A stretch of DNA of 64,000 nt, taken from NCBI GenBank assembly GCA_030272155.1, contig CP126201.1:2323501-2387500 (forward strand), given 5' to 3'. Source of the DNA: Tetradesmus obliquus. Lineage: Eukaryota; Chlorophyta; Chlorophyceae; Sphaeropleales; Scenedesmaceae. The notes under the pieces were generated by a model, which did no database searches, was not told the origin of the DNA, and saw nothing but the letters and a program-made list of their open reading frames with translations. Below, one piece after another: positions 2,842-63,593 of the stretch. Each line of letters starts with the position of its first letter. The first letter of the stretch is position 1. A program made the position numbers and the translations under genes.

Positions 2842-5800
2842 TCAAGCAGAGTCCTCCTTGGGCTTAGGCTTTGCCACATCTCCCACAATCTTGCTCTTGT
2901 CCTCATCCAGGTCTGCAATGGCCTTAATGCCGTACGCAAGCTTGCGGGGCACTGCCTTGATGCCGCTGGCAATCTTGGTTGCCGGCTGCTTCAGCAGGCG
3001 TGCAATGGTGGCCTGCAGCTGCTTCTTTGTGGGCAGGTTCTCGCAGCGCTTGAACTGCAAAAAGTGAACAGCAAGCAACAGAAGTGCCAGCAGCAGCAAA
3101 GTATTGAGATTATCAGCGGGTGACAGGGAGGTTGTAGGGCATATGTCATGGCTTGTGAGGGCTGCATGGCTCTGCCGAAGTGTGCACAGGGCCATCCCAA
3201 CTTTGCAGGGAACCAGCTGGACGGCATGCAGCAGACCTGGTAACTAAACCAACCTCAAGCCCACACCAGGCATCATGCGCTACAGCAGCAGACACCACAG
3301 ACAGCATACCACAAGCCAACTGCAAGCGTGTGCAAAACAGGCAGCTGCACGTTTCTGAGCAAGGGTCTGTCAGCCAGTACGAATACATGATAATGCTACA
3401 TACGTGATTCAGATTTTGCCCTATCATTGTTTGCATCATACAGACCCTTGCTCTTTGTTCAGCTGCCAACAACATCACATGTCACTCAAATCACATAAAA
3501 AGAATCAAAAAACAGACGATGTTCCTGCAAGCCAGCGGACGTGGCCTGGTACCCACTCACCAGCCAGCAAACATCCCGTGCACTCGAGCAACCCCGCAAC
3601 AACGGTAAGCAGCCGCCCTGCGCCCTGCTACATTAACCACCACCAGCCGCCGCACCTCTGCTGGCGACAACACCTTGCTGCCCATGACAACGGTGCAATC
3701 AGCAGCACACCCTACAATTTCAAACATCCACATCAACGCAACCACCCTGCAGCAAGAGCTGCCAACCAATCCGCACCTCTGCTGGCGAGAGCGCCTTGCT
3801 GTCCATCACGATGGCACATTCAGCAATCGGTAACACCCCCTACACAACCCCACGTTCTACACAACAACCCGCACCAACAAAAACACCCTGTAAAGCAGCC
3901 AGCCGCCGCACCTCTGCTGGCGAGAGCGCCTTGCTGTCCATCACGATGGTGGTCAGCGTGGTGGGCGCCACTGGCTCCACGCCCTTGGGTGCTGCTGCCT
4001 TGGCCTCCTTCATGAGGTCGTCGCTGAAGGCGTGCCAGTGCTTCACGGTGTCGGGGATGTCGTCCTCGTGCACAAACACCCACGCGTTGTCGCCCTGCAG
4101 GAAGATTATGCAACATGGCGGCAAGATGTTAGGCTACAGCGGTGCTTTACAATGATGGTGGTGGTGGGATATCCTCCACATGCACAAACAACCACACGTT
4201 GATGCCCTGCAGGATGTGGCAGCAACGCAGCAGGCAGGTCAGAGACACAACCGTACAACCAACCACGCATTGGCGCGCCCCAGGGCGTCATGTTGATGCG
4301 GCAGCAACACGGCAGAAGCGTCCAACAGGTCAAGACATACATCATGCACCGGCATCCAGACGTTTGCAACGTTAGGCTGCGAACACGAGTCATCATTGAC
4401 AGCACGCCTTGATGGCTCAGCCGTGCAGTTGCAGCACTCGCCAGCTCACCATCACTGCACGCCCACTGCAGCTGCAGCTACTGCTGGCACTGCTAGCACA
4501 CATCATGTTGCTCACCATCTCATGCTACCAACATCTTGCTTAGCTAAATGCTTATGGGGAGCTAGCTAGCGTGCCTGAACGTGTAGGCAGCTGCCTGCCG
4601 CTGATGTTGCTGCGAGCTGGCACATCGCATACAGTGAAAGACAGCTTCAACCGCAAGCGCCACACGCCCTGCTAAAAGCAGCCAGGGCGATGAGCCGCTG
4701 CAAATGCTGCGCGTGCTTGACTTCAGCACTCAGCGCTCCATAAATTGACCATTGCACAAGCCTGCCGCTCCTGCTGTGCCTGCCAACAGCATCCATCGCG
4801 TTGCTGCCGTCGCCGAAACCAAACTATTGATGCTAAAGCCATCCAAAGGTTTTCTTCAACAAATTAGACGCACAGCTGCCTTTGCACCCTGTGAATTATC
4901 TGCACACAAGCCCTGTCACTCTCCTGCAAACCACATCCACTGCCCTGAGCAAACCGCAACCACTGACGAGCCAACTGTGTGCAATACCAGCCCTGAGTTA
5001 CCACTGCCGATACTCACTGTGCAGCCCTGCTCTCCCAGCACCTCCCAGCCTGGCACTGTCTTCACTGCCTCCTTCATCAGGCTGTTCTTGCAGATGTACA
5101 CAGATGACTTCTCTGGCACACCCCTGCGGAACTTCTGCATGGTAGGCACCTGCAGTCACAAGGCCATAGCAGACACACTGCGTCAGACACGTGTGCCTGC
5201 AAGATGCTGCAGCCTGCATGTGTGCATAGCTTCCAAGGCGCCGCAGAGTCTGCATACAGCTAGCACCATGAGCAGGCTGCACGTGTGTTTGCAGGAACGG
5301 AACAGCAGCGCTGCTCAGCTGCCAGCAAGCACTGCCACAGCTAGTGCTCGACTAAAACTGCTGACAGGCTCTCCACTGTGACTAAAAGCACCGCTTCTAC
5401 TGCTGCCACCTGTGGTTGCAGCCGAAAGCACAGCTGCTGCTGCTGTTGCTGTTGCTGAGCTTGCTCCCAGCCACTGCTCCAGCTGTACCTCCAAGGCAGC
5501 TGCAGCCCACGCCACTCCATAGCCCGCTAACTGCCACATTCACCCCTGCTGCTGCCAATGAGCCATCCAGGCTGCTCACGTCAATGTTCTTGAAGCGCAG
5601 GCCAAAAACGATGACGCTGCCCTCCAGCTTGCCCTGCAGCTCCTTTACAATCTCCTCCTTCTTTTGCCTGGTGATAGCATTTTGCACCTGCAATTCCAAC
5701 AATGGCCCACTCAGCAAGGAGCCCCGAGACCGGCCCACCACACACTGCGCTTCGCCATCCACACCTGCAGGCTGCCCCTGCTGACTCTACTGCTGGTGAA

Positions 5801-5848
5801 TGCTGACTTAGACCGCAGAGCGGTTGTGCTGCCACTGAATGCCTGCAT
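2842..5848 (-). CDS. PRPL10: Plastid ribosomal protein L10 (uL10c)
   Basis: Predicted exons: 5848-5765, 5687-5580, 5134-5018, 4094-3912, 3054-2842. Every exon is a multiple of three and every intron is phase 0, giving 234 residues. Exon 1 encodes [20 protein letters not shown], a Ser/Thr/Ala-rich stretch with Arg and Lys typical of a chloroplast transit peptide. The body follows L10 order: [12 protein letters not shown], then [45 protein letters not shown] and [17 protein letters not shown], ending in a Lys/Ala-rich tail. L10 forms the base of the ribosomal stalk and anchors L7/L12 dimers on 23S rRNA; here the ribosome would be that of the chloroplast. The gene diverges from ClpX with 303 nt between start codons. 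Introns 2 and 3 contain copies of exon 4's edges. Confidence 0.93.
3645..3814 (-). repeat. Two intronic copies of the 3' end of L10 exon 4
   Basis: Segments 3645-3694 and 3771-3814 repeat the last roughly 45 nt of L10 exon 4 (authentic 3912-3955, encoding the SPAE end) together with its GTGCGG-type donor. They lie downstream of the exon in the minus-strand sense, inside intron 4. The nearer copy is almost exact; the farther one has several substitutions. Confidence 0.85.
4166..4212 (-). repeat. Intronic copy of the 5' end of L10 exon 4
   Basis: This degraded copy of the exon 4 head (authentic up to 4094, the NAWVFVHED region) keeps the CCTGCAG acceptor. It lies upstream of the exon in the transcript sense. 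Confidence 0.75.
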
Positions 5849-63100: not shown

Positions 63101-63593
63101 GTGACAAATCAGACAGGTAGAGGTCCTCAACGCACAGCAGTAGAAGCAATTGAGCAAAACATTACACGCTTTTCCAGCAAGAGCAACCACGAGCAACCAA
63201 GGGAAGCTCAGTTGACGCGCGACATGTAAATGACAGAGCGTGTGATCAAGCATATCATTGAAGTGGGGCAGGTGATTCAATCACTCCCAAAGCTGCGCCA
63301 GATCACACGACTCACTCGTCCGTCTAGGATTGCCGATGTAGCTGCACACAGAGGCTCCAGGCAGCACGCTCTTGCTGATTGAGTTGCAAAGCAGTTGCAA
63401 TAAAGACACCGAGTTGCTGTAATTGGTCTCCACACTTTGCAACTCACTCGTCCGTGATGACCTTGCCGATGTAGCTGCACACAAAGGCTCCAGGGGGCAG
63501 GTCACAGCTGCAGCGCACGCCCCAGCCCTTCTCTGCCGACACCTTGAACACCTCAAGCGGGTAGCGGATGCCGTTGGACACGACGTGGTTGTA
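60196..63593 (-). CDS. SET-domain histone-lysine N-methyltransferase, C-terminal part (5' part beyond the right edge)
   Basis: Predicted exons in the window: 63593-63448, 62718-62605, 62226-62163, 61378-61302, 60943-60847, 60282-60196; 194 residues, all joins in frame. The SET domain reads [77 protein letters not shown] and AVPAGQELTYDYGENY. The cofactor-pocket NHSC and the catalytic-tyrosine region YDYG are intact. A post-SET motif CxCxxxxCxG (CQCGAANCTG) follows, as in the SUV39/SETDB/SUVH group that methylates H3K9. The pre-SET domain and N-terminus lie past 64000, so the subfamily is open. Every intron seen carries exon-edge copies, and the terminal post-SET exon is present three times. 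Confidence 0.9.
60649..60695 (-). repeat. Copy of the 3' end of the YDYG exon of the SET gene
   Basis: Echoes GQELTYDYGENYHTK (authentic end 60847) with substitutions including an in-frame stop. It lies downstream of the exon. Confidence 0.8.
61019..61044 (-). repeat. Copy of the 5' end of the YDYG exon of the SET gene
   Basis: Repeats the head SQLLYYT with its CCTGCAG acceptor (authentic from 60943), upstream of the exon. Confidence 0.85.
61175..61238 (+). repeat. CAGAATCCC minisatellite
   Basis: About seven irregular 9-10-nt units of (C)CAGAATCCC in a SET-gene intron. Confidence 0.9.
61379..61421 (-). repeat. CAG tract (CTG in sense) at the 3' splice site of the NHSC exon
   Basis: About 14 triplets abut the acceptor; in sense it reads (CTG)n CTGCAG|GGCAACGTG. 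Confidence 0.9.
61807..62100 (-). repeat. Three copies of the 3' end of SET-gene exon 62226-62163
   Basis: Segments 61807-61833, 61909-61932 and 62072-62100 echo HLVVDAGST followed by a GTGAGG-like donor. They lie downstream of the exon, in units that also repeat TGTTACAAA-type intron sequence. Confidence 0.85.
62281..62431 (-). repeat. Two copies of the 5' end of SET-gene exon 62226-62163
   Basis: Segments 62281-62325 and 62388-62431 echo NLKPLEGQLAEKHL with GTGCAG acceptors, upstream of the exon. The spacer (CAAATACAAGGC) is repeated too. Confidence 0.88.
62735..63134 (-). repeat. Three copies of the 5' end of SET-gene exon 62718-62605 within a minisatellite-like intron
   Basis: Exon-head copies at 62850-62898, 62978-63027 and (short) 63111-63134 echo ADALQPGVEDLYLFDLS. 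They are joined by repeated GTGTGACAGGTC(G/A) and ATCGGAGGTGTG(A/G)CTGAT modules, so the whole intron has grown from a unit of about 125 bp. Confidence 0.9.
63316..63361 (-). repeat. Copy of the 3' end of SET-gene exon 63593-63448
   Basis: Echoes [10 protein letters not shown]...TDE with the donor GTGAGT (authentic end 63448), downstream of the exon. Confidence 0.85.

Follow-up and report, generated by a model that had tools for sequence, protein, structure and literature searches.

Copies of exon edges in the adjacent introns of Tetradesmus obliquus and their possible origin in tandem duplication across splice junctions

A stretch of 64,000 nucleotides from the green alga Tetradesmus obliquus (contig CP126201.1, positions 2,323,501 to 2,387,500; hereafter the window) holds genes whose introns carry degraded copies of the edges of their own exons: the start of an exon with its splice acceptor is copied upstream of it (acceptor copy), and its end with the splice donor is copied downstream (donor copy). 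Gene models came from a self-trained gene finder, whose models were coherent. Pfam matches identified the genes for ribosomal protein L10, an arginine deiminase, an RRM protein (which from its sequence we take to be U1-70K), a SET-domain protein, a cyclic-nucleotide-binding protein and a 2OG-oxygenase, and ClpX was identified through PDB. Eight gene models of the window were tested, two of them merged (deiminase with the WD40-named gene, RRM with oxygenase); the tested piece of the WD40-named gene had no Pfam match, and the sole match of the IQ piece lay below the cut-off. The window has a GC content of 56.3%, and for the species PMC5966456 gives 57%, 7.8 introns per gene and a mean intron of 462 nt, the longest among the five algae tabulated there. 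The genes and their copies are as follows, in window coordinates.

2842..5869, minus strand: ribosomal protein L10 gene (PF00466)
3771-3814 (38 of 38 exon nt) and 3644-3695 (33 of 40), minus strand: donor-side copies of L10 exon 3912-4094
4168-4214 (31 of 39), minus strand: acceptor-side copy of L10 exon 3912-4094
6152..12445, plus strand: ClpX gene, 12 copies
7344, 8882, 9021, 9816, 9936, 11277 and 11433, plus strand: ClpX donor copies
9231, 9344, 9462, 11697 and 11799, plus strand: ClpX acceptor copies
11697..11987, plus strand: three-unit 109-nt array in ClpX, two copies of acceptor and exon head plus the real one (exon 11920-12312)
28250..29811, minus strand: IQ gene, third of three 3,935-bp repeats, with acceptor copies at 28938-28996, 29614-29679 and 29735-29795
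31808..37803, plus strand: Porphyromonas-type arginine (agmatine) deiminase gene (PF04371)
32372, 32782, 32876, 33736, 33874 and 34416, plus strand: deiminase donor copies, with an acceptor copy at 34923
39491..39981, plus strand: WD40-named gene, exon 39491-39770 with donor copies at 39828-39855 and 39952-39981
45485..45754, minus strand: Gln-rich gene, acceptor copy at 45702-45754, in which a 2-nt indel breaks the frame
51827..52998, minus strand: RRM gene region (PF00076)
51953-52859, minus strand: 907-nt intron of the RRM gene, with donor copies at 52637-52707 and 52465-52527 and acceptor copies at 52217-52267 and 52075-52131
53681..55009, minus strand: further copies in the RRM gene model, donor at 53681-53717 and 54597-54637, acceptor at 54960-55009
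60196..63593, minus strand: SET-domain gene (PF00856)
60637, 61020, 61800, 62063, 62281, 62388, 62835, 62974 and 63310, minus strand: nine copies in the SET gene

With the first two IQ repeats omitted, the window holds 44 copies at 28 edges, in agreement with the more than 40 copies that had been reported from the letters alone in an earlier account (the sequence-only reading). All eight genes named there carry copies, since seven of the eight tested models were positive and two models are merged; the cyclic-nucleotide-binding gene (155-1806) had copies at 0 of 6 edges. The 907-nt RRM intron holds two relics of each flanking exon edge, the donor and acceptor sets not being interleaved. The IQ gene sits in a 3,935-bp segment that is present in three near-identical tandem copies (20444-32243, 99.6-99.8%), and repeats 1 and 2 hold the same acceptor copies as repeat 3. 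The deiminase gene has its first exon within the end of this segment, and 31800-32243 recurs in identical form at two places upstream.

For the edge test, each exon edge (up to 60 nt of exon plus 12 nt of intron) was aligned locally against both neighboring introns at a threshold score of at least 44, the controls being the wrong-side intron, mid-exon sequence, and reversed and reverse-complement sequence. Outside the window the sample comprised 20 loci in evenly spaced 10-kb stretches and 12 loci picked for RRM or peptidase matches or for nearness to hot spots. Before counting, L013 and L021 (satellite repeats), L017 (all N), exons shorter than 30 nt and targets shorter than 40 nt were excluded, and small predicted exons that resembled the edge of a larger neighbor were reclassed as intron (31 of 442 overall, 21 in the first round), a step that homology backs for ClpX and the D1 protease and that is provisional for most of the other genes. 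IQ repeats 1 and 2 were left out of the family counts and kept in the window's edge-test count.

Across all loci a copy was found in the predicted-side intron in 73 of 685 edge tests, against 2 of 576 in the wrong-side intron and 1 of 227 for mid-exon sequence, and the reversed and reverse-complement controls gave no match at any locus at this score. For the window alone the figures were 32 of 152 (4 of the 32 being IQ repeat paralogues), 1 of 136 and 0 of 40, so that the fixed polarity described earlier is borne out as a pattern. Presence beyond the window, a check that the sequence-only reading had itself proposed, was confirmed on the sample loci: predicted-side copies occurred in 24 of 452 tests in the evenly spaced stretches, where wrong-side introns gave 1 of 384 and mid-exon sequence 1 of 158, and in 17 of 81 at the 12 other loci (wrong side 0 of 56).

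Exon-edge copies extend beyond the window, but their distribution is very patchy. One evenly spaced stretch, L022 (C2:5500001-5510000), alone accounts for 10 of the 24 hits, at 10 of its 26 edges, and L037, 10-20 kb upstream of the window, has copies at 7 of 21 edges; L010, L012, L014, L016, L019, L020 and L026 combined have them at 0 of 176. The word "throughout" in the earlier account is thus too strong genome-wide, many stretches being free of copies. By number, L022 is the densest 10-kb stretch beyond the window, and one donor there has up to four copies at a spacing of about 120 nt.

While the side bias is clear, polarity had also been offered as a sign of mechanism, and in that role it is weakened. 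At a distance of 80-150 nt there is hardly any other place for a copy that would leave the exon unharmed, so that the side is largely forced; since locality and selection mostly dictate polarity, it says little about mechanism. Geometry constrains the side least in exons of 30-70 nt, and there copies lay on the expected side in 3 of 83 tests and on the wrong side in 1 of 68, too few to decide.

Taken together, 116 copies at 69 edges (families) were found in 16 loci, 36 of the edges having a single copy, and the two sides are about equally represented, with 63 donor copies (54 still with GT) and 53 acceptor copies (46 still with AG). Most copies thus retain the splice dinucleotide. Matched cores span 28-122 nt (48 families), and the nearest copy lies 82-153 nt away in 40 of 48 first-round families and 112-149 nt away in the middle half of all 69. 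Matches extend to the splice site and then fade within about 12 intron nt; in 66 first-round copies without gaps, identity stays at 0.82-0.93 between -5 and +19 and drops to 0.2-0.36 beyond -30 (acceptor) or -10 (donor). When 279,590 bases were masked and compared with themselves, 256 direct local pairs emerged, 107 of them in the two satellite loci, against 31 inverted ones; the direct pairs have an offset peak at 80-160 nt that holds 76 of the 256. CTG/CAG triplet runs are abundant across the window, in introns and in poly-Q and poly-A coding stretches (for example at 16579-16636, 17766-17830 and 46769-47045), and have overwritten the flanks of some copies.

The introns that carry copies are longer, with a median of 459 nt (n=61) against 274 nt (n=286) for those without, as the proposal of intron growth predicts. 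The substitution pattern, moreover, agrees with the earlier statements that the exon-attached copy is the working one and that the outer copy is nearly neutral. In the 33 families with at least two copies, changes private to the exon fall 4:5:34 by codon position (34 synonymous, 9 nonsynonymous), while those private to one intronic copy fall 48:61:90 (83 synonymous, 112 nonsynonymous, 2 stop), so that constraint lies on the exon, with the copies near-neutral. The slight third-position lean in the copies could stem from mis-polarized changes.

Were the copies functional alternative exons or splicing regulators under selection, the mostly retained splice dinucleotides and that mild third-position lean would be accounted for. 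We consider this very improbable, as private nonsynonymous changes outnumber synonymous ones, 14 of the 116 copies carry a frameshift indel, and the inner boundary of the copies shows no clear AG or GT excess, for which reason the idea that they are micro-exons was also dropped. The same frameshifts and private changes set them apart from duplicated (mutually exclusive or cassette) exons. In addition, the protein is unaltered in both genes that were checked. The D1 protease gene, which lies outside the window, has an acceptor copy at L035:801-851, so that the edge occurs twice in the gene and once in the solved protein; the L035 exon matches photosystem II D1 protease (PDB 1fc6/1fc7, which we take to be the protein of Scenedesmus, that is Tetradesmus, obliquus) at 89 of 91 residues, both misses falling at the exon start, and the stretch spliced across the junction is identical to it at 72 of 72 residues. 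ClpX, spliced without its copies, aligns to solved ClpX across the 285 residues tested.

One could suppose that nothing special is at work: short tandem duplications strike at random, exonic ones are purged, polarity follows from geometry, and the splice-proximal part merely stays recognizable. Locality does predict the polarity, and the relics are near-neutral. We compared the data with simulations that placed random tandem duplications of the observed unit lengths on the real introns, with neutral decay, uniform ages and 0.1-0.6 indels per substitution. The simulated ratio of junction to intron-only duplications was 1.50-1.59 in one run and 1.11-1.26 in another, whereas we observed 69 junction families against 4 intron-only pairs, or 13 when those with a single arm in a copy are included, at detection thresholds that are comparable and not identical. 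The intron-only figures derive from the pairs 40-450 nt apart in the enlarged sample without satellites, where 118 were exon-intron, 35 intron-intron, 10 exon-exon, 39 outside gene models (some of which may sit in genes missed by the finder) and 6 mixed; of the 35 intron-intron pairs, 22 had both arms in exon-edge copies, 9 had one and 4 had none. When one fixed 72-nt piece was taken from the center of each longer intron and compared with the remainder of that intron, 20 of 426 tests gave a match.

The intron flanks point the same way. Homology of the adjoining intron was found at the nearest copy in 30 of 69 families, where chance would give about 5% and the simulations gave 86-89%; when any copy was tried it was detected in 39 and not in 30 of the 69. 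In the youngest families (exon identity at least 0.95) it was found in 8 of 17, against 97-100% in simulation, a shortfall no smaller than in the whole set. Spacer homology at p<0.05 was seen in 11 of 36 single-copy families and in 28 of 362 copy-free introns. Given these mismatches, which depend on the assumed uniform ages and set indel rates, purely random duplication is distinctly unlikely and already disfavored, and a neutral clock by itself is disfavored by the loss of flanks and the scarcity of intron-only duplications.

Part of the set does behave as plain tandem duplication. In the 39 families with an alignable flank (any copy), the exon part diverges by 9.6% and the flank by 17.6% over the 67% of it that aligns, a ratio of 1.83 that lies near the roughly 1.54 expected under neutrality with one-sided constraint, and without masking flank similarity forms a continuum in which about half of the copies (56 of 106) are homologous; this count omits 10 of the 116 copies, for many masked bases or an exon identity below 0.75. 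An earlier idea that the spacers are wholly unrelated was dropped on account of this continuum. Ten families with exon identity of at least 0.95 and an alignable flank showed 68 flank mismatches in 511 sites against 23.5 expected, a contrast inflated by selecting the subset for low exon divergence. Calibrating the intron rate on paralogues failed: the IQ repeats have had too little time to diverge, with differences at 0 of 1257 sites in exons and 2 of 2684 in introns, and a search of the whole genome with two window stretches (deiminase/WD40 and RRM/oxygenase) yielded no useful paralogue among the matches listed.

The mismatch between simulation and data leads us to conclude that the tandem mechanism is partly right and that the exon-derived half preferentially persists or is copied. 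In the reading that we consider best, and to which we give about an even chance, short tandem duplications, mostly of 80-150 nt, would span a splice junction and be tolerated because the exon-attached junction still functions; the outer copy, a splice signal with about 20-110 nt of exon, would then turn into intron and decay near-neutrally, lengthening introns at both ends. Copy location, substitution pattern and intron length bear out the decay and the growth, while the duplication event itself we infer. Secondary unequal exchange may spread whole units into arrays, since whole-unit homology is seen in some; in the ClpX array at 11697-11987 the adjoining intron is also duplicated, with 31 of 31 flank nt identical. 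The exon half would outlast the intron half most likely through re-seeding by the selectively fixed exon in a homology-dependent exchange such as gene conversion or slippage, a step that we only infer. The claim of junction-crossing tandem duplication thus stands for the outer copy that is left as intron, and does not explain why intron-only duplications are scarce and why the intron half goes undetected in so many families.

Several observations weigh against this combination of duplication and exchange. The data hold nothing that is a direct sign of exchange. Incidence is highly uneven among the 20 evenly spaced loci (chi-square p 3e-11). In 25 of the 36 single-copy families no spacer homology was detected, and six of these have exon parts that are 96-100% identical. 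Finally, mismatches in the 116 copies fall 113:130:327 by codon position, a third-position excess over first and second of 2.67-fold (2.26-3.16), which exceeds the roughly 1.8-fold that we estimate for a relic under no constraint since it arose, whether or not exchange took place; base composition could lift that ceiling to about 2.2-2.4.

The families without spacer homology would be explained if only an exon-edge piece with its splice signal were copied into the nearby intron, for example through templated insertion where the DNA has broken, or with an unspliced transcript as the source. The scarcity of intron-only duplications, the fading of matches within about 12 intron nt, and young copies with unrelated flanks (L015, 51 of 52; L027, 31 of 32; window 60943, 32 of 32) fit this as well. 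The flank homology of the nearest copies, far above chance and continuous in degree, does not, so that we regard it as unlikely. The favored exon half may, we think, reflect either exchange with the exon or the birth of some copies without an intron flank. More generally, we would only tentatively speculate, holding it more likely wrong than right, that a junction-anchored process preferentially copies exon edges into introns, or keeps them alive there, and spares intron-only sequence, with exons as standing templates.

Unequal exchange between diverged haplotypes, in which the outer copy comes from an allele with a differing intron and a conserved exon, would fit the sharp end at the splice site, the diverged yet sometimes homologous flanks and the third-position excess. 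This reading, weighed here on a single haplotype, requires an intron divergence far above usual allelic levels, which makes it improbable.

Two direct copies on either side of a spacer, which in many cases bears no relation to the remaining intron, might also suggest an introner-like transposon insertion with a long target-site duplication, or an artifact of gene models or assembly. This we hold to be extremely improbable: the known D1 protease and ClpX proteins agree with the splicing used, and a comparison of 17.9 kb of the window with the whole genome showed no dispersed family among the matches listed, a weak and non-exhaustive test, as the own full-length place of the first stretch (deiminase/WD40) was missing from its list. 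Besides their own place and the IQ repeats, the listed matches of the two stretches lay only at triplet-rich spots. Introners, as PMC9860276 presents them, are repeated families, some with target-site duplications of 3-9 bp, and share with the copies described here that intron sequence is added to many genes. The direct repeats here are mostly about 50 nt, well beyond such short duplications.

Intron growth is usually attributed to transposons and drift, and tandem genomic duplication is known as a model of intron gain, reportedly from Rogers 1989, Gao and Lynch 2009 and Hellsten 2011. In Rogers-type gain, as cited in PMC4974935, a new intron arises through duplication of an exonic AGGT segment. 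As far as that account goes, the algal case is alike in that a local tandem duplication within a gene is neutralized by splicing and leaves the protein unchanged, and unlike in that the junctions copied, and the introns that lengthen, were already there; the copies hold one existing junction with intron bases, and no AGGT segment supplies both splice sites. The same source describes a tandem duplication in potato RdRp that crossed an intron-exon boundary, acceptor side included, and created a new intron. This published precedent for a boundary-crossing duplication is a single case with a new intron, whereas the alga has 69 edges, donor and acceptor, with relics that give no evidence of a new exon. 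Some introns resemble minisatellites in carrying arrays of 96-138 nt units; unlike minisatellites, these units are anchored to exon edges and fixed in side. No description of exon-edge copies as a general intron trait was found in the literature, as covered by titles and the starts of abstracts, with most subscription journals outside coverage.

Because the relics are datable and directional and bring built-in controls (wrong side, mid-exon, intron-only), intron growth becomes a measurable process, and such a measurement is feasible in a genome of 104.66 Mb assembled as 17 long contigs. Each relic, moreover, plants a decoy splice site that can be scored by RNA sequencing (RNA-seq). If the junction-anchored reading were true, it would represent a distinct route of intron growth.

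Other features of the sampled DNA are of minor bearing. A tRNA-Val gene (anticodon CAC) lies at window 59088-59162 on the minus strand, between the oxygenase and SET models. At L034:1661-2054 (minus strand) the head of an S41 peptidase exon (VVLVN-STASTSELLAGA) is present in three copies, separated by long CTG runs. The excluded loci L013 and L021, at 4.5 Mb on C1 and C2, have GC contents of 0.49 and 0.48 and nested satellites with offsets of, for example, 312, 336, 366 and 408 nt; our guess is that these stretches are possibly centromere-like.

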